This document shows, one piece after another, positions 2,395-44,868 of a stretch of DNA of 64,000 bases (positions within the stretch are counted from its first letter, which is position 1; each line of letters opens with the position of its first letter). The DNA comes from Rhodovulum sp. PH10 (GTDB lineage Bacteria; Pseudomonadota; Alphaproteobacteria; Rhizobiales; Xanthobacteraceae), in assembly GCF_000293785.1 (NCBI RefSeq), contig NZ_AKZI01000036.1:62001-126000 (forward strand), given 5' to 3'. Made by a program: the position numbers and the translations under genes. The notes beneath the pieces were generated by a model that saw nothing but the letters and a program-made list of their open reading frames with translations, was not told where the DNA came from and did not search any database.

Positions 2395-4074
2395 CTACTT
2401 CCCGCCCTGCATCTTTGCCCAGGTGTCGCGCAGGCCGATGGTGCGGTCGAACACCGGCGCGCCGGGCCGCGAGTCGGGATCCGGGCAAAAATAGCCCTGC
2501 CGCTCGAACTGCACCGCCGTGCCGACCGGGACGTCGAGCAGCGACGGCTCGAGCTTGCAGCCGCGCAACACCTCGAGCGAGTCGGGGTTGATGTCGGAGG
2601 CGAAGTCGCCGGCGTTCGGCGCCGGGCTCTTGAACAGCGGATTGTAGAGCCGCACCTCGGCGTCGACCGCGTCGGCGGCCGAGACCCAGTGAATGGTCGC
2701 CTTCACCTTGCGGCCGTCCGGGGCGTTGCCGCCGCGGGTTTCCGGGTCGTAGGTGCAGCGCAGCTCGATCACCTCGCCGGCCTCGTTCTTCACCACCTCG
2801 CGGCAGGTGACGAAATAGGCCCAGCGCAGCCGCACCTCACGGCCGACCGAGAGGCGGAAGAACTTCTTCGGCGGGTCTTCCATGAAGTCGTCGCGCTCGA
2901 CGAACAGCTCGCGGCCGAACCGGATCTTTCGGGTCTTTTCCGGGTGGTCGGGGTGATCGATCGCGTCGATCTCCTCGCTACTCCCTTCGGGATAATTCTC
3001 GATCACGATCTTCAGCGGCGCGAGCACCGCCATCCGCCGCTCGGCGACGCGGTTCAGGACCTCGCGCACCGAGAAGTCGAACATCGCCATGTCGACCACG
3101 CTGTTCGCCTTGGCGACGCCGATCCGCTTGGCGAACTCGCGCAAGGCCTCCGCCGGCACGCCGCGGCGGCGCAGGCCGGCGAGCGTCGGCATCCGCGGAT
3201 CGTCCCAGCCGTCGACGAATTTGTCGCGCACCAGCGTGGTGAGCACCCGCTTGGAGAGCACGGTGTAGGTGAGGTTCAGCCTTGCGAACTCGTACTGGTG
3301 CGGCCGCGACGGCACCGGCAAATTCTCGATGAACCAGTCGTACAGCGGCCGGTGATCCTCGAACTCGAGGGTGCAGATCGAGTGGGTGATGCCCTCGATC
3401 GCGTCCGACTGGCCGTGCGCGAAATCGTAGCTCGGATAGATGCACCAGGCGTTGCCGGTGCGCGGGTGCGTCGCGTGGAGAATCCGGTAGATCACCGGAT
3501 CGCGCAGATTGATGTTGCCCGACGCCATGTCGATCTTTGCCCGCAGCACGCGGGCGCCGTTCGGGAACTCGCCGGCGCGCATGCGGCGGAAGAGGTCGAG
3601 ATTCTCGTCGACCGAGCGGGTGCGGAACGGGCTGTCGGTGCCGGGCTCGGTCAGCGTGCCGCGGGTCGCCCGGATCTCGTCCTGCGACTGGTCGTCGACA
3701 TAGGCCTTGCCGGCCAGGATCAGATGCTCGGCCCAGGCGTAGATCTGCTCGAAATATTCCGACGCGTGATAGAGGTGGGTCCCCCAGTCGAAGCCGAGCC
3801 AGCGCACGTCGCGCTCGATCGCGTCGATGTACTCCTGCTCCTCCTTCACCGGGTTGGTGTCGTCGAAGCGCAGGTGGCAGCGCCCGCCGAACTCGCCGGC
3901 GACGCCGAAATTCAGGCAGATCGACTTGGCGTGGCCGATGTGCAGATAGCCGTTCGGCTCGGGCGGGAAGCGGGTGACCACGGTCGAGACGCGCTTCGCG
4001 TCGAGATCGGACTGGATGATGTCGCGAATGAAGTCACGGCCCACGTTGGTGGTGGCCGTTTCGACTGCGGTCAT
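2395..4074 (-). CDS. glnS: Glutaminyl-tRNA synthetase
   Basis: A 559-residue class I aminoacyl-tRNA synthetase that charges tRNA-Gln with glutamine. The catalytic Rossmann core begins near residue 30 and shows [14 protein letters not shown], with HIGH at residues 45-48. The KMSKS counterpart reads VLSKR around residue 275. The C-terminal half matches the two beta-barrel anticodon-binding domains, and the length is normal for bacterial GlnRS. PPEPNG-type spacing and strong N-terminal similarity separate it from GluRS, which is encoded separately at 6350. The ATG at 4074 is followed directly by family-like sequence. The neighbours are an ABC exporter upstream and comEC downstream, with no clear operon. 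Many alphaproteobacteria instead make Gln-tRNA by transamidation, so a direct enzyme is worth noting. Confidence 0.96.
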
Positions 4075-4239: not shown

Positions 4240-5064
4240 TCATCGCCTGAGATAGAGCCACAGCGTCAGCGGCGCCAGCAGCAGGGTCAGCACCGCCGGC
4301 GCGATCAGCGCGAGCGCGACCTCGCCGAGCGTCGCGCCGCCGCCCATCAGGCCGCGCAGCGCGGTGGTCGTCAGCGAGATCGGGTTGACCGCCACGAAGG
4401 CCTGCAGCCAGGCCGGCATCGTCGTCGGATAGACCATGATGTTGGAGGCGAAGACGAGCGGAAAGAGAACCGTGAAGCCCATCGTCATCACCGTGGTCGG
4501 GGTCCGGATGACGAGCCCCAGGACGATGAAGATCCAGCCGAACCCGAAGCCGATCGCGACCAGCAGCGCGAAGCCGGCGACGACGCCGGGAACGCCGTTC
4601 TCCGGCCGGTAGCCGAGCACGAGACCGATCGCCAGGATGAGGGTGCCGGCGATCAGGTGGCGCAGCACGTCGCCGACCATCAGCCCGGCGAACGGCGCGA
4701 GCGGCCAGATCGGCAGCGAGCGGAACCGGTCGAACAGCCCCTTGTCGAGGTCGGTCGACAGGCCCATGCCGGAATAAACCGAATTGAAGACGACCGTCTG
4801 CACCAGGATGCCGGGCAGCAGATACTGCAGATAGTCGCTCGCCGATCCCGCGACCGCGCCCCCGAACACGAAGGTGAACAGCAGCGTGAACATCACCGGC
4901 GACATGACGATGTCGAAAAACTGCTCCGGCACGTGCTTGAACTTCAGCACGGCACGCCACCCGAAGCCGAGCGCGTTCGACAGCGCCGACGGCCGCGGCG
5001 GACGCGCCACTCGCGCGATCGTCACCCACGCCGCCGACACGGGCTCGTTCGATCGCTCGCTCAT
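4240..5064 (-). CDS. ABC-2 type transporter permease (DrrB-like)
   Basis: A 274-residue polytopic membrane protein of the ABC-2 family with about six hydrophobic segments. It carries the typical NPIS/TTALRG region before the last transmembrane helix (VNPISLTTTALRGLMGG). ABC-2 permeases pair with a separate ATPase to export drugs, lipids or polysaccharides. Its ATG overlaps the stop codon of the ATPase gene by four bases (ATGA), which indicates translational coupling and a two-gene exporter operon. The closest architecture is daunorubicin-resistance DrrA/DrrB. The substrate cannot be inferred. Confidence 0.88.
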   Translation of the reverse strand: MSERSNEPVSAAWVTIARVARPPRPSALSNALGFGWRAVLKFKHVPEQFFDIVMSPVMFTLLFTFVFGGAVAGSASDYLQYLLPGILVQTVVFNSVYSGMGLSTDLDKGLFDRFRSLPIWPLAPFAGLMVGDVLRHLIAGTLILAIGLVLGYRPENGVPGVVAGFALLVAIGFGFGWIFIVLGLVIRTPTTVMTMGFTVLFPLVFASNIMVYPTTMPAWLQAFVAVNPISLTTTALRGLMGGGATLGEVALALIAPAVLTLLLAPLTLWLYLRR

Positions 5065-40216: not shown

Positions 40217-41011
40217 ATGCGGATCGCGACCTGGAACGTCAACTCGGTCAAGCAGCGGCTCGACCACCTGCTCGGCTGGCTCGACGAGACCAAGCCCGAC
40301 ATCGTCTGCCTGCAGGAGATCAAGTGCGTCGACGACGCGTTTCCACGCGAGGCGATCGAGGCGGCCGGCTACAATGTCGCGGTGCACGGGCAGAAGACGT
40401 TCAACGGCGTCGCCCTGCTCTCCCGCCGGCCGTTCGACGAGGTGACGCCGGGGCTGCCCGGCGAGCCGGAGGACGATCACGCGCGCTTCCTGGAAGGCGT
40501 GGTCTCGAGCGCCGACGGGGTGTTGCGAGTAGCCTGCCTCTATCTGCCGAACGGCAATCCGGTGGAGACGCCCAAATATCCCTACAAGCTGCGCTGGATG
40601 GACCGGCTGATCCGTTATGCCGAGGACCGGCTGGCGCTCGAGGAGCCGCTGGTGCTGGCCGGCGACTACAACGTGCTGCCGACGCCGGACGATGTGGCCA
40701 ATCCCGAGGCCTGGAGCAACGACGCGCTGTTTCTGCCGCAGACCCGGGAGCGGTTCTTTGCGCTGCGGGCGCTCGGCTTCACCGATGCGGTGCGAGCCTC
40801 GTCCGACCGCGCCGACCTCTACACCTTCTGGGATTACCAGGCCGGCTGCTGGCAGAAGAACATGGGGCTTCGCATCGACCACCTGATGCTGTCGCCGCAG
40901 GCGGCCGACCGGCTGGTCCGCACCGGAATCGACAAGCCGATGCGCGGACGCGAGAAACCGTCCGACCACGTGCCGGCGTGGTGCGAGCTGGACATGCAGG
41001 GAAAGGCCTGA
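40217..41011 (+). CDS. xth: Exodeoxyribonuclease III
   Basis: A 264-residue AP endonuclease/3'-exonuclease of the EEP family that acts in base-excision repair. Motifs are WNVNSVKQRL (metal-site N), LQEIKC (catalytic E), LAGDYNVLP (D and N) and the C-terminal SDHVPAWCEL (catalytic DH pair). The length is normal. It is convergent with the DUF1640 cluster, with only 27 bp between the stops, and a G/C hairpin occupies that space. Confidence 0.95.
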   Translation: MRIATWNVNSVKQRLDHLLGWLDETKPDIVCLQEIKCVDDAFPREAIEAAGYNVAVHGQKTFNGVALLSRRPFDEVTPGLPGEPEDDHARFLEGVVSSADGVLRVACLYLPNGNPVETPKYPYKLRWMDRLIRYAEDRLALEEPLVLAGDYNVLPTPDDVANPEAWSNDALFLPQTRERFFALRALGFTDAVRASSDRADLYTFWDYQAGCWQKNMGLRIDHLMLSPQAADRLVRTGIDKPMRGREKPSDHVPAWCELDMQGKA

Positions 41012-41017
41012 GCGGCA

Positions 41018-41036
41018 GCGCCCCGCGCGGGGGCGC
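41018..41036. terminator. Hairpin between convergent xth and the first DUF1640 gene
   Basis: GCGCCCC (41018-41024) pairs perfectly with GGGGCGC (41030-41036) around a five-base loop. There is no clear T-run on either strand, so termination activity is inferred from position only. Confidence 0.5.
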
Positions 41037-41038
41037 GA

Positions 41039-41413
41039 TCAGTTCAGCCGCTGGATCAGCGCCAACGCGCCGATGCCGGCGACCATCAAGGCCCCGAGCC
41101 GCACGGTGAGCTGCAGGCTCAGCCGCTCGATTTTTGCCTCGAGGCCGTCGATCCGGCCGGCGAGCGCAGCGTCACCCTCGCGGATCTTTGCCTCGAGCCT
41201 CGTTTCCAGGTTTTCGATTCGACCGTCGAGGCGGCCCTCCAGCGCCGATAGCGCAGCGGCGAGGTCGGTCTTGGTGACGAGCTCGACCATGATGAAGTCT
41301 CGGGCCGCCTCGGCATGGGCCTCGGCCTGCTCGCCCGGAATCCCGGCTTCGCGCAGCCGCTTGGAAAATCCGAGCGTATCGAAAGCGAACACCATTGCAA
41401 TCTCGTGGGTCAT
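41039..41413 (-). CDS. DUF1640/CCDC90-like coiled-coil membrane protein, copy 1
   Basis: A 124-residue protein. Residues 7-45 form the DUF1640 head (FDTLGFSKRLREAGIPGEQA). A coiled coil follows (about 47-95), then a C-terminal membrane helix (RLGALMVAGIGALALIQRLN). Compared with copy 3, its coil is 18 residues longer (one hendecad plus one heptad; LDGRIENLETR and GDAALAGRIDG). The family includes the mitochondrial MCUR1/CCDC90 proteins, which are anchored by the C-terminal helix. Its bacterial function is unknown. A second start (ATG at 41395, MVFAFDT) is equally possible. The 92-bp upstream segment is duplicated with the gene. Confidence 0.82.
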   Translation of the reverse strand: MTHEIAMVFAFDTLGFSKRLREAGIPGEQAEAHAEAARDFIMVELVTKTDLAAALSALEGRLDGRIENLETRLEAKIREGDAALAGRIDGLEAKIERLSLQLTVRLGALMVAGIGALALIQRLN

Positions 41414-41505
41414 CGAAACGACGATGCGCCCGAGAGTAGCACGGCTCGTCTGCCATCCGCAGCGGTGGTCGGTGACGGCCGCCCCTCCGAGTGGTCGCCA
41501 AAAAA

Positions 41506-41892
41506 TCAGTTCAGCCGCTGGATCAGCGCCAGCGCGCCGATGCCGGCGACCATCAAGGCGCCGAGCCGCACGGTGAGCTGCAGGCTCAGCCGCTCGATTT
41601 TTGCCTCCAGCGCAGCGTCGCCCTCGCGGATCTTTGCCTCGAGCCTCGATTCCAAGCCGTCGATCCGTCCGGCGAGGGCAGCATCGCCTTCACGGATTTT
41701 TGCCTCGAGCCGGCCTTCCAGTGCGGAGAGCGCCGCGGCGAGGTCGGTCTTGGTGACGAGCTCGACCATGATGAAGTCTCGGGCCGCCTCGGCATGGGCC
41801 TCGGCCTGCTCGCCCGGAATCCCGGCTTCGCGCAGCCGCTTGGAGTATCCGAGCGTATCGAAAGCGAACACCATCTCAATCTCGCGGGTCAT
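41506..41892 (-). CDS. DUF1640/CCDC90-like coiled-coil membrane protein, copy 2
   Basis: A 128-residue paralogue, nearly identical to copies 1 and 3 in the head (MVFAFDTLGYSKRLREAGIP) and tail. Its coil is the longest. The 22-residue (two-hendecad) unit LEAKIREGDAALAGRIDGLESR is followed by a second LEAKIREGDAAL. The coil directly joins the C-terminal helix, which ends in ALIQRLN. Same topology as copy 1. A start at the internal ATG (41874) is also possible. The gap to copy 1 is 92 bp and conserved, so each copy may have its own promoter. Confidence 0.82.
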   Translation of the reverse strand: MTREIEMVFAFDTLGYSKRLREAGIPGEQAEAHAEAARDFIMVELVTKTDLAAALSALEGRLEAKIREGDAALAGRIDGLESRLEAKIREGDAALEAKIERLSLQLTVRLGALMVAGIGALALIQRLN

Positions 41893-41984
41893 CGAAACGG
41901 CGATGTGCCCGAGAGTAGCACGGCTCGCCCGGTGGCCGCAGCGGTGGTCGGTGCCGGCCGCCCGTCCGAGTGGTCGCCAAAAAA

Positions 41985-42305
41985 TCAGTGCAGCCGCTGG
42001 ATCAGCGCCAGCGCGCCGATGCCGGCGACCATCAAGGCGCCGAGCCGCACGGTGAGCTGCAGGCTCAGCCGCTCGATCTTTGCCTCCAGCGCAGCATCAC
42101 CCTCGCGGATCTTTGCCTCGAGCCGGCCCTCCAGCGCAGAGAGTGCGGCGGCGAGGTCGGTCTTGGTGACGAGCTCGACCATGATGAAGTCTCGGGCCGC
42201 CTCGGCATGGGCCTCGGCCTGCTCTCCCGGCATCCCGGCTTCGCGCAGCCGCTTGGAATATCCGAGCGTATCGAAAGCGAACACCATCTCAATCTCGCGG
42301 GTCAT
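41985..42305 (-). CDS. DUF1640/CCDC90-like coiled-coil membrane protein, copy 3
   Basis: A 106-residue paralogue with the shortest coil, one LEAKIREGDAAL unit only. Head and transmembrane tail match the others, except that the last residue is His rather than Asn. It lies upstream of copies 1 and 2 in transcription order and downstream of the ExoR-like gene after about 115 bp. The three genes probably arose by tandem duplication followed by gain or loss of coil units. An alternative start is ATG 42287. Confidence 0.82.
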   Translation of the reverse strand: MTREIEMVFAFDTLGYSKRLREAGMPGEQAEAHAEAARDFIMVELVTKTDLAAALSALEGRLEAKIREGDAALEAKIERLSLQLTVRLGALMVAGIGALALIQRLH

Positions 42306-42421
42306 CGAAACGACGATGCGCCCGAGAATAGCACGGCTGGCAGAACGGCTCGCGCGCCATCCGCAGCGACCGGCCGAAACCGCGAACGGTCACCGGGTCC
42401 GACCGCTCGACTGCCGCCCGA

Positions 42422-43912
42422 TCACTCCCGGCGGCCGCCGCGGATCCAGCGCTCGATGTAGGTCAGCGCGGTCGCCCGCTCGTCGTCGGTCGCCTGCTTG
42501 AAGGCGGCGGACTGCAGGTCGGTGATCCAGGTCTCCTGCGGGCTCGCCGCGTCGCGCGCGAGCGTCAGCCACATCAGGCCGCGGGCGCCCTGGCGGGGCA
42601 GCGATTCGCCCTTGAACAGCATCGCGCCGAGCACCGCCTGCGCCTGATACTGGCCCTTGTTGGCGGCGAGCTGCAGCCACCGCGCGGCGAGCCGCGAGTC
42701 CTTCACCCCGCCGGTGCCCTCGAGATACATCCGGCCGAGGTGATACTGCGCATCCGCGTCGCCGAAATAGGACGCGGCATAGGTGAACATCTCGCGGGCA
42801 CGGTCGGGGTCGGCCTTCACGCTCGACTTCGGGATGCCGTCGAGGAAATAGGTGCCGAGCTGGACGAAGGAATTGGAGACGAAGCGGGCGCGCGGCGTGC
42901 CCGGGGCCTCGTCCGCATGGGCGTCGGCGACCTCGCGGAAATACTCGAAGGCACGCAGCTCGTCGCGCTTCACGCCGTCGCCGTCGGCATACATGCGGCC
43001 GAGCTTCCACTGGGCGATCGGGTGACCGCTCGAGGCGGCGTATTCGAGCGCGCGCACGCCGCTCTTGGTGTCGCCGGCGAGCAGGGCCTGGGCGCCCGAG
43101 CGAAACGCCTCGACGGCGGTGAGCTGCGCGGTCGGCGGCTGCAGCACGTCCGGGCGGATCGTCGAGGAGTTTTGCAGAGGCGATACGCCGCGCGGAAACA
43201 GGTCGACGCTGACGGCCGGCGCGAGCTCCGCCGTCGTGGTCCGATTTCCATCGAACGCCCGCGCACCGCCGAGCCCGACACCGAGCCCCACCGCAATCAG
43301 CAGGGCCACACCACACACCGTCCGCATGACACGACTTCTCGAACGCGACTGCCGGCCCGCCGGCGGAACCACCGCACGCCGGACCAGATCCTGAGCACAA
43401 TTCCACAAATGAGCGGACACCGGAGCCGGCACCCGTCCTTGCCGCACGGCCTCCTGCGCGGAGGTTTCCCGCATCGGCGACTCGGCAGCGCGGCCCTCTG
43501 CGGCGCGGCCTTCGGCGGCGCTGCGGGCGGCGAGGCGGCGCGCCATACGTGCGGCGAGCCCGGAAGGATGACGCTCGAACACTGGATCCACCCGATCGAA
43601 ATCCCGATCGAAGCCCTCGATACCGGAAGCCGCCGCACCGTCCCGATGCAGCCCAGAATTGGTCCTCGCGGTCGCGGCCGCAATGTCCTGCGTCGTGATT
43701 CGACCGTCGTCGACGGTCACAAATTCGCGATCATCGATGTCGTAGGAGACGGCGGCGTGCGAAGGGCGCGCCGCGGCCCGGCCGCTCCCGGCCGCCGCGG
43801 GCGGAGCGGACGTGTCGCCGGCGACGAGCGCTTCGTGCACGCGACCGCTCTCGGTCGAATGCCGACGCAGCTCGATGTCGTCCGTCCTGGCGTCCATCGT
43901 CCTGCCGTCCAT
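42422..43912 (-). CDS. ExoR-like Sel1-repeat periplasmic regulator, with possible N-terminal extension
   Basis: The C-terminal about 270 residues match rhizobial ExoR, a periplasmic repressor of the ExoS/ChvI two-component system. They contain Sel1-like repeats (ALEYAASSGHPIAQWKLGRMYADG, DADAQYHLGRMYLEGTGG). A membrane or signal segment MRTVCGVALLIAVGLGVGLG begins at ATG 43327 and leads to GARAF, a plausible cleavage site. The classical start would be 43327 (301 residues). However, the frame stays open well upstream with coherent sequence (YDIDDREFVTVDDGRIT, AARMARRLAARS, AEGRAAEGRAAE), so I extend it to ATG 43912, with the start uncertain. The exact start decides whether the protein is secreted or membrane-anchored. 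Confidence 0.68.
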   Translation of the reverse strand: MDGRTMDARTDDIELRRHSTESGRVHEALVAGDTSAPPAAAGSGRAAARPSHAAVSYDIDDREFVTVDDGRITTQDIAAATARTNSGLHRDGAAASGIEGFDRDFDRVDPVFERHPSGLAARMARRLAARSAAEGRAAEGRAAESPMRETSAQEAVRQGRVPAPVSAHLWNCAQDLVRRAVVPPAGRQSRSRSRVMRTVCGVALLIAVGLGVGLGGARAFDGNRTTTAELAPAVSVDLFPRGVSPLQNSSTIRPDVLQPPTAQLTAVEAFRSGAQALLAGDTKSGVRALEYAASSGHPIAQWKLGRMYADGDGVKRDELRAFEYFREVADAHADEAPGTPRARFVSNSFVQLGTYFLDGIPKSSVKADPDRAREMFTYAASYFGDADAQYHLGRMYLEGTGGVKDSRLAARWLQLAANKGQYQAQAVLGAMLFKGESLPRQGARGLMWLTLARDAASPQETWITDLQSAAFKQATDDERATALTYIERWIRGGRRE

Positions 43913-44202
43913 GCGCGTCACGTCCCGATCCGGTGCTCCGTGCGACGAGAATTCCGTCGGCCCTTTCACGTTCCGGACATGCTCGAGATCGTGTTCGGGT
44001 GTGGCGGAATATGGGCGTTTCGCGTGATCGTACCCCCGCTCACGGAAATGTTGGCACGATGTTGCCGGTGTGACACACGTTGTGGCGGGGGATACACGTC
44101 GCTGACCCCGGTGAGAATGTTCGCCGAACCGCCTTCGGACTGCGAGCAGTCTCGCGCGAAATGCTCTCCGAACCCTCGAGCACACCGCGCGTAAACGACG
44201 AG

Positions 44203-44868
44203 ATGACGAAACCATCCATCAACCGAATCGCGCCGCCCGGCGCGGCCGCCCGAATCCCGGGCTCTCCGGTGCCGCTCTCCCGCGCCTTCTTCGATCGCAG
44301 CGTGCATCTCGTCGCGCCCGACCTGATCGGCACGACGCTGCTGGTCGACGGCGTCGGCGGGACGATCGTCGAGGTCGAGGCGTATCACCATACGGACCCG
44401 GCGGCGCACAGCTTTCGCGGAAAAACCCCGCGCAACGCGGTGATGTTCGGACCGCCGGGCCACGCCTATGTCTACCGCTCCTACGGCATGCACTGGTGCG
44501 TCAACGCGGTGTGCGAGGCGGAGGGCGAGGCGAGCGCGGTGCTGATCCGCGCGATCGCGCCGACCGTCGGGCTCGACCGCATGCGCGAGCGGCGGGGCTG
44601 CGAGGACGTGCGGCTGCTGTGTGCGGGTCCTGGGCGGATCTGCGAGGCGCTCGGCATCACGCGGGCGCTCGACGGCCATCCGCTCGACGCGCCGCCCTTC
44701 GTCGTCCTCGCCCGCGAAAAACCGGTCGAGATCGTGACGGGGCCGCGAATCGGCATCACCAAGGCGGCCGAGCTGCCGTGGCGCTACGGGCTGAAGGGCT
44801 CGAAGTTCTTTTCACGGCCGTTCGAGCCGGCTCGCCGATCGGCACCTGCCCCGCCGAACGAGCGGTGA
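44203..44868 (+). CDS. mpg: DNA-3-methyladenine glycosylase (AAG/MPG family)
   Basis: A 221-residue base-excision glycosylase that removes alkylated purines. Family motifs include [22 protein letters not shown] with the catalytic Glu, [20 protein letters not shown] and [15 protein letters not shown]. The ATG at 44203 fits the family; in-frame ATGs at 44080 and 44161 add unrelated sequence. It is divergent from the ExoR-like gene over about 290 bp and convergent with the PII gene. Confidence 0.92.

Follow-up and report, generated by a model that had tools for sequence, protein, structure and literature searches.

A tandem array of CCDC90-related coiled-coil genes with graded stalk lengths, and phase-keeping stalks in the wider family

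The 64,000-nucleotide stretch of Rhodovulum sp. PH10 DNA analysed here (the window; contig NZ_AKZI01000036.1, positions 62,001 to 126,000) contains three head-to-tail genes, called P3, P2 and P1 in order of transcription, which lie between an exonuclease III-like gene (xth) and a gene for a Sel1-repeat protein. Throughout, stalk length is the number of residues from a lysine in the neck motif to a threonine at the membrane anchor.

40217 to 41011, forward strand: exonuclease III-like gene (PF03372), convergent with the array and flanking its insertion site
41039 to 41413, reverse strand: copy P1, 124 residues, stalk of 54
41414 to 41505, reverse strand: P2-P1 spacer, 92 nt, with the same tentative TGnTAnnnT box as the next spacer
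41506 to 41892, reverse strand: copy P2, 128 residues, longest stalk (58)
41893 to 41984, reverse strand: P3-P2 spacer, 92 nt, with a tentative TGnTAnnnT (extended -10-like) box just before the first ATG
41985 to 42305, reverse strand: copy P3, first in transcription order, 106 residues, shortest stalk (36)
42306 to 42421, reverse strand: gap between the Sel1 gene and P3, 116 nt, spacer-like in its last ~30 nt only
42422 to 44215, reverse strand: Sel1-repeat protein gene (PF08238), directly upstream of the array

All three genes run from ATG to stop without frameshift (0 of 3, by reading of the open reading frames), and a repeat finder also recovered the P3-P2-P1 array. Outside the coil the copies are nearly identical: the DNA for head and membrane tail is 94-98% identical, with 8-11 of 186 nucleotides differing between any two heads and 2-5 of 102 between any two tails, and most of these substitutions are synonymous (between the heads of P1 and P2, 8 synonymous changes over 47 sites and 3 non-synonymous changes over 139). 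The differences in length, of 18, 22 and 4 residues, all fall in the coil. An earlier, sequence-only reading of this DNA had described three adjacent paralogues with a common head and membrane tail, and the DNA alignment of the copies and their intact frames bear this out. It had also raised the possibility that the three-copy array was an artefact of assembly. Short tandem repeats do assemble badly in principle, but the copies differ at scattered sites (2-6% outside the coil), have distinct coils and spacers and lie inside a 166-kb contig, so an artefact is very improbable.

Translation may start at the second methionine, which would give proteins of 100, 122 and 118 residues for P3, P2 and P1, respectively. 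The conserved part begins at the methionine of M[VA].AFDT in six of seven family genes from other Rhodoplanes genomes, in a comparison where a script took the methionine nearest FDT; L014 and L016 have no further methionine within the open frame, and the seventh gene (L019) is frame-broken in the start region.

The two intergenic spacers differ at 10 of 92 positions. The claim that a 92-bp spacer precedes all three genes thus holds for the two intergenic gaps but not before P3, where only the last ~30 nucleotides are alike (1-3 differences from the spacers in 30 nt, 13 in 50 nt). A TGnTAnnnT box was seen in an alignment of nine upstream regions; since it is absent from some of the nine and a sigma-70 scan found no promoter, it stays tentative. 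No Rfam family matched positions 40900-42600 at gathering score, and the folds of the spacer RNAs are no more stable than those of shuffled sequences (z -0.61 and 0.55). The Sel1-repeat gene is a neighbour of the array, and a partnership between them is putative at most.

The gap between xth and the Sel1 gene is a variable site in Rhodoplanes, the genus to which we assign the window's genome. In the window it spans 41012-42421 and holds the array; the array is absent from this site in five other Rhodoplanes genomes, one of them only 58% complete. There the gap measures 103 and 51 nt in two genomes (L132, L134), contains a repeated stretch in another (L133), and holds a pair of genes for a FitA-like (RHH) antitoxin and a PIN toxin in the remaining two (L130, 2378-3021; L131, 2353-3044). 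Four of the five genomes have a family gene elsewhere, and none was found in the 58%-complete one. The sequence-only reading had asked whether related strains carry the same array, fixed and with decaying copies: xth and Sel1 adjoin without the array in these five relatives, and some copies in the wider family do decay, such as a frame-broken one in Rhodoplanes elegans (L085) and a truncated third copy in a Nitrospirales array (L097, 6704-6883).

The three proteins score 25.3, 18.8 and 17.9 bits against the CCDC90-like family DUF1640 (Pfam PF07798) when searched singly; as each falls under the curated cut-off of 33.5, we file them as relatives and not as formal members. Contig C67 of this genome carries a paralogue that is barely at the cut-off, with 33.5 bits when its in-frame neighbours are included and 32.3 for the match alone, and 18 of 55 aligned family members match PF07798 at E <= 0.001. 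Among solved chains, the best match of three family profiles was a CCDC90B construct (6h9m; E 0.0021, 0.0083 and 0.0073), and a Nitrospirales relative found 6h9l first (E 0.0015); P2 as a single sequence had no match in the PDB up to E 10. The kinship to DUF1640/CCDC90 that had been claimed is therefore supported at the profile level, and the similarities, weak but consistent, suggest that the window proteins are relatives of CCDC90B and MCUR1. A regulator of a bacterial calcium uniporter, by analogy with MCUR1 in mitochondria, would be suggested by the likeness of the head to CCDC90B, the paralogue of MCUR1. We give this reading hardly any weight: none of 12 family-carrying genomes matched the MCU family, a result tempered by control genomes that were equally without a match, which leaves absence unproven. 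Separately, a Pfam Apolipoprotein match of a window protein was set aside as coil similarity, its score lying far under that family's cut-off, and a PHROGs search with P2 returned a single family without assigned function and, over the coil, a weak match to a tail fibre. A 'DUF1640' tail fibre of phage AKFV33, as annotated in the accessible part of PMC3326045, may likewise reflect coil similarity, and we set it aside.

The AlphaFold model of P2 (mean pLDDT 91) has helices at residues 13-22 and 27-43, then a break at the ELVT of residues 44-47, which overlaps the neck motif, and finally a single helix at 48-127, whose C-terminal end is hydrophobic as read from the sequence. In the model of a short phage-type protein the helix is unbroken at the neck. 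Foldseek found no match to either model in the PDB at E <= 0.001, which is uninformative because the models are a long single helix. Each protein would thus be built from a short helical head, the neck motif LVTKTD, a stalk of 11-residue repeats and a hydrophobic C-terminal helix. Proteins of this kind are said, in passages citing Adlakha 2019, to form a head-neck-stalk-anchor class. Human MCUR1 has been described as a head, a beta-layer neck, a matrix stalk and a membrane segment (available text of PMC6801532). LVTKTD, present in all three window proteins, fits the beta-layer motif [aliphatic]-A-T-K-[polar]-[DE] given for DUF1640 in the accessible passages of PMC4786415, except that V replaces the consensus A.

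Within the array, alignment by eye resolves the length differences into coil units. Going from P2 to P1, an 11-residue unit is lost and a 7-residue unit gained, and going from P3 to P2, 22 residues are gained. The earlier proposal that the coils differ by one hendecad plus one heptad (18 residues) and by two hendecads (22), thereby preserving register, is therefore visible in the alignment itself and goes beyond arithmetic. Hydrophobic spacing in all three stalks is strongest at 3.667 residues (11/3) among nine periods tried. The coil is also internally repetitive at the DNA level: P2 has two 39-nt units that agree at 32 of 39 positions and differ at 7, and units of different copies differ at 2-7. 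Such repeats could allow units to be gained or lost by recombination.

Stalk length is quantised across the wider family. Our first set comprised 86 unique members with both the neck and the anchor motif, the window's three included, and 72 after removal of equal-length near-duplicates; the other 64 of 150 unique members, which lacked a motif, were left out. The stalk lengths are 10, 14, 17, 21, 25, 28, 32, 36, 37, 39, 43, 46, 47, 50, 54, 57, 58, 60 and 64, and so on up to 119. The best period for the 72 is 3.62 residues, about one helical turn (R 0.83), and none of 2000 random sets matched this at any of the periods tried between 3.2 and 4.0. The periodicity persists without the window copies (R 0.84), with the commonest length dropped, and when only distinct lengths are counted (R 0.68); the tests on distinct lengths deserve more trust, because the random sets assume independent lengths, which does not hold for related sequences. 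A second set of 82 unique members, of which 34 were usable (48 lacked one motif) and 32 remained after near-duplicate removal, was scored at the fixed period and phase and gave 0.72 against a null of 0.01 +/- 0.13, with 0 of 20000 random sets as high. The six lengths new in this set fit the phase weakly (0.30, p 0.15); the set contributes lengths of 24 and 26, and the protein with a stalk of 26 has a second neck motif within it. Among members with both motifs, then, stalks vary in length yet keep the phase between neck and anchor. Where the sequence-only reading had suggested selection on coil length, these data support a constraint on stalk phase (period 3.62) in the wider family. The stalks of P1-P3 themselves lie 36-73 degrees away from the family's mean phase.

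How widely the family occurs depends on the search. A family-level search (query P0002) of 391 genomes, which scored no more than 11 candidates in any one of them, matched 30 at E <= 0.001, the window's genome included; among the matches listed, 19 of the 30 genomes had a single match, and a tandem array was found in 1 of 391, the window's own. At 1e-5, and again counting the window's genome, matches occurred in 26 of 385 genomes of alphaproteobacteria, 23 of 397 of the order and 55 of 398 of the phylum. For ten genomes, most of them picked as rich, full scoring returned 1, 5, 10, 11, 22, 22, 23, 32, 42 and 44 matches, which are not gene counts because a long protein can give two. Four phylum-mates (G1248, G1168, G1165, G1179), genome G734 and the Nitrospirales genome of L097 have 22-44 matches each, some in tandem and with very different stalks. 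The genus g506 (G1174, G1179, G1264) probably belongs to the Magnetococcales, because the genome of L090 (Magnetococcales DH2_bin6) has its matches at precisely the positions found in G1174.

We then surveyed tandem pairs over 334 hits in 292 fetched loci, some genes being counted more than once where loci overlap; the regions were centred on hits, and some had been chosen for hits lying close together and none for length. Thirty distinct same-strand pairs lie within 1 kb, and 12 of these are close in both head (>= 60%) and tail (>= 50%): three are the window's, and the others come from G1165, G1248, G1168 and the Nitrospirales genome G1468. Their members differ in length by 4, 4, 7, 9, 10, 11, 11, 11, 18, 22, 22 and 73 residues, with no difference of zero. 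These values favour whole helical turns (mean cosine 0.65 against 0 +/- 0.20), apart from 9 and 10, which fit poorly, and the preference remains when one hand-picked difference per duplication is used and the window is excluded (mean cosine 0.53, p 0.015). The clearest parallel to the window is a triplet in G1165 with the same head and tail, encoding 131, 142 and 120 residues in order, with 22 nt from each stop to the next start and stalks of 65, 76 and 54, that is, differences of 11 and 22; a tandem pair in G1248 has stalks of 21 and 28. A second count, made by genome with stricter identity and with each identical protein counted once, found 16 close pairs outside the window, of which six also belong to the 12, and none of the 16 was of equal length (0 of 8 dispersed pairs and 0 of 8 same-locus pairs).

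The array is thus genuine; it has relatives in a known class and counterparts in other genomes. The suggestion that it was an undescribed system peculiar to this DNA did not survive, the family being known and close tandem copies with different stalks being present in at least four other genomes (G1165, G1248, G1168 and G1468 among them). Since similar sets occur in other bacteria, tandem duplication of this kind seems to be a route by which sets of membrane spacers arise again and again.

Our proposed explanation, which we consider probable, is that the array genes code for head-neck-stalk-anchor spacers related to CCDC90B/MCUR1, fixed in the membrane at the C-terminus and probably trimeric, and that they were produced by tandem duplication and by gain and loss of coil units. 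A gene and its upstream spacer would have been duplicated in tandem at the variable site, coil units would later have been lost or gained, perhaps through recombination between the internal coil repeats, and the changes that persisted would be those keeping the helical phase from neck to anchor. As a spacer, the stalk would place the neck lysine ~54, 81 or 87 Å from the anchor threonine (at 1.5 Å per residue). We infer that the proteins insert into the membrane as homotrimers with a cytoplasmic head, which could act as a scaffold or tether. The copies are best read as accessory spacers that present one head at several heights.

We give close to an even chance to the view that no selection for a set of lengths was involved: a recently duplicated gene contains a changeable repeat, purifying selection removes the copies whose coil is broken, and the graded lengths are a by-product. 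The internal repeats of the coil, with the 39-nt units of P2 differing at 7 positions, favour this view, as does the single array among the matches listed for 391 genomes. So do the dispersed paralogues, whose stalks differ just as those of same-locus pairs do (0 of 8 of equal length in either class), as they would if the stalk merely changes faster than the rest of the protein. Set against this, the copies have stayed intact with few amino-acid changes, and other arrays show like differences. This view and the spacer explanation are not mutually exclusive, because the latter concerns the nature of the protein and the former the purpose of the set.

A different use of the set, in which common heads and anchors let different copies assemble together and the mixture of stalks tunes the complex, is improbable in our judgement. 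Heads and tails are nearly identical, and the yeast MCUR1 homologues Put6 and Put7 form a hetero-oligomeric complex (PMC7519068, as excerpted), but parallel chains of 36, 54 and 58 residues with fixed ends would have to loop out up to 18-22 residues. Equal ends with stalks 18-22 residues apart therefore mildly favour homotrimers.

The genomic contexts of relatives bear on whether the gene came from mobile elements. It might be a gene for exclusion, anti-restriction or membrane docking that a chromosome captured and multiplied, which we regard as doubtful. Relatives are carried on 23 viral contigs, some at most ~4 kb from terminase or portal genes, where neighbours include ParB-like nucleases, DUF932, terminases or a rolling-circle initiator. 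Eight to nine Methylobacterium loci place relatives near genes for ArdC and DUF736, and an ArdC-type neighbour is common to eight of them, with one member scanned per recurrent neighbour cluster here as elsewhere; the window's insertion site, as noted above, carries a FitA-like/PIN pair in two other Rhodoplanes. Weighing against a mobile origin, PADLOC run on six proteins returned one match (E 0.014) and nothing further, and in Rhodopseudomonas, Tardiphaga and related records the family gene sits between tatC and serS at 10-11 loci. Neighbouring families did not converge: among the families down to rank 25, none matched more than 4 of 104 viral-locus proteins (of 153 selected) or more than 2 of 87 from multi-copy genomes (of 119 selected), and no partner gene common to the viral, ArdC, tatC and multi-copy contexts was found.

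tatC adjoins the family gene in L052, L054, L056, L061, L067, L068, L072, L073, L079, L080 and L087, and serS does so in 10 of these 11. The neighbours shared by the Methylobacterium loci L063, L070, L074, L076, L078 and L081-L083 were typed, from one member each, as ArdC-type antirestriction and DUF736 proteins, as on conjugative elements. Four virus contigs of 8-17 kb (L123, L124, L126, L128) combine a rolling-circle initiator (phrog_3419 in L123) with a family member and possibly belong to filamentous-type phages. At eight mobile-type loci (L057, L058, L069, L110, L111, L112, L117, L118) a phrog_1448-type protein of unknown function, typed in L112, lies just upstream of the family gene.

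Returning to the spacer explanation, the window proteins share with MCUR1/CCDC90B of human mitochondria and with yeast Put6/Put7, so far as the accessible descriptions go, a head profile, a neck position, a helical stalk and a hydrophobic C-terminal helix; they differ in being bacterial, shorter and each below the Pfam cut-off, and from one another they differ mainly by stalk units. A functional analogue is WbdD, a molecular ruler whose trimeric coiled coil sets the distance of its enzymes from the membrane (PMC5082667, available text). The likeness lies in a parallel three-stranded membrane spacer that sets a distance, the window trimer being our inference; WbdD carries enzymes, whereas the window proteins have a small head and coexist as paralogues of several lengths. 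Discrete, periodic classes of coil length, as in the window family, are also described in the accessible parts of PMC6798134 for histidine-kinase linkers and of PMC5344682 for SMC arms, so the principle is not new; those systems serve signalling and an ATPase, with heptad or longer-range periods, whereas the window family steps by about one turn (3.62). The literature, as far as its text was available, held no report of a period-3.62 stalk rule for the CCDC90-like family and no description of tandem graded copies or large expansions of its genes.

A series of paralogues differing almost solely in stalk length constitutes a set of natural experiments that separate the effects of head, phase and membrane distance. 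Quantisation supplies a simple, falsifiable rule, namely that in-phase lengths are tolerated and others are not, and genomes with tens of family matches mark the lineages in which the role should be easiest to find. The phase rule, together with the recurrent tandem series and expansions, is what we consider most worth pursuing. We put forward as a conjecture, unlikely in its entirety, that bacteria repeatedly build membrane-ruler sets in which one head and anchor are combined with phase-kept shifts of the stalk to give discrete heights, that a short founder travelled on phages and conjugative elements, and that a Magnetococcales genus with its phylum-mates and a Nitrospirales lineage expanded it to tens of matches per genome.

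The beta-layer proteins of PMC4786415, which include DUF1640, resemble the family in having a T-K-x-D neck at the start of the stalk, and the accessible passages describe no tandem paralogues or stalk-length series. The nonads treated there have a counterpart in a neck motif repeated inside the stalks of L097 and L283, and in a tandem difference of nine residues bearing ATKED. In L283, the copies at 3022-3405 and 4257-4556 differ by these nine residues, which bear a second ATKED motif and may represent the gain of a nonad beta-layer.
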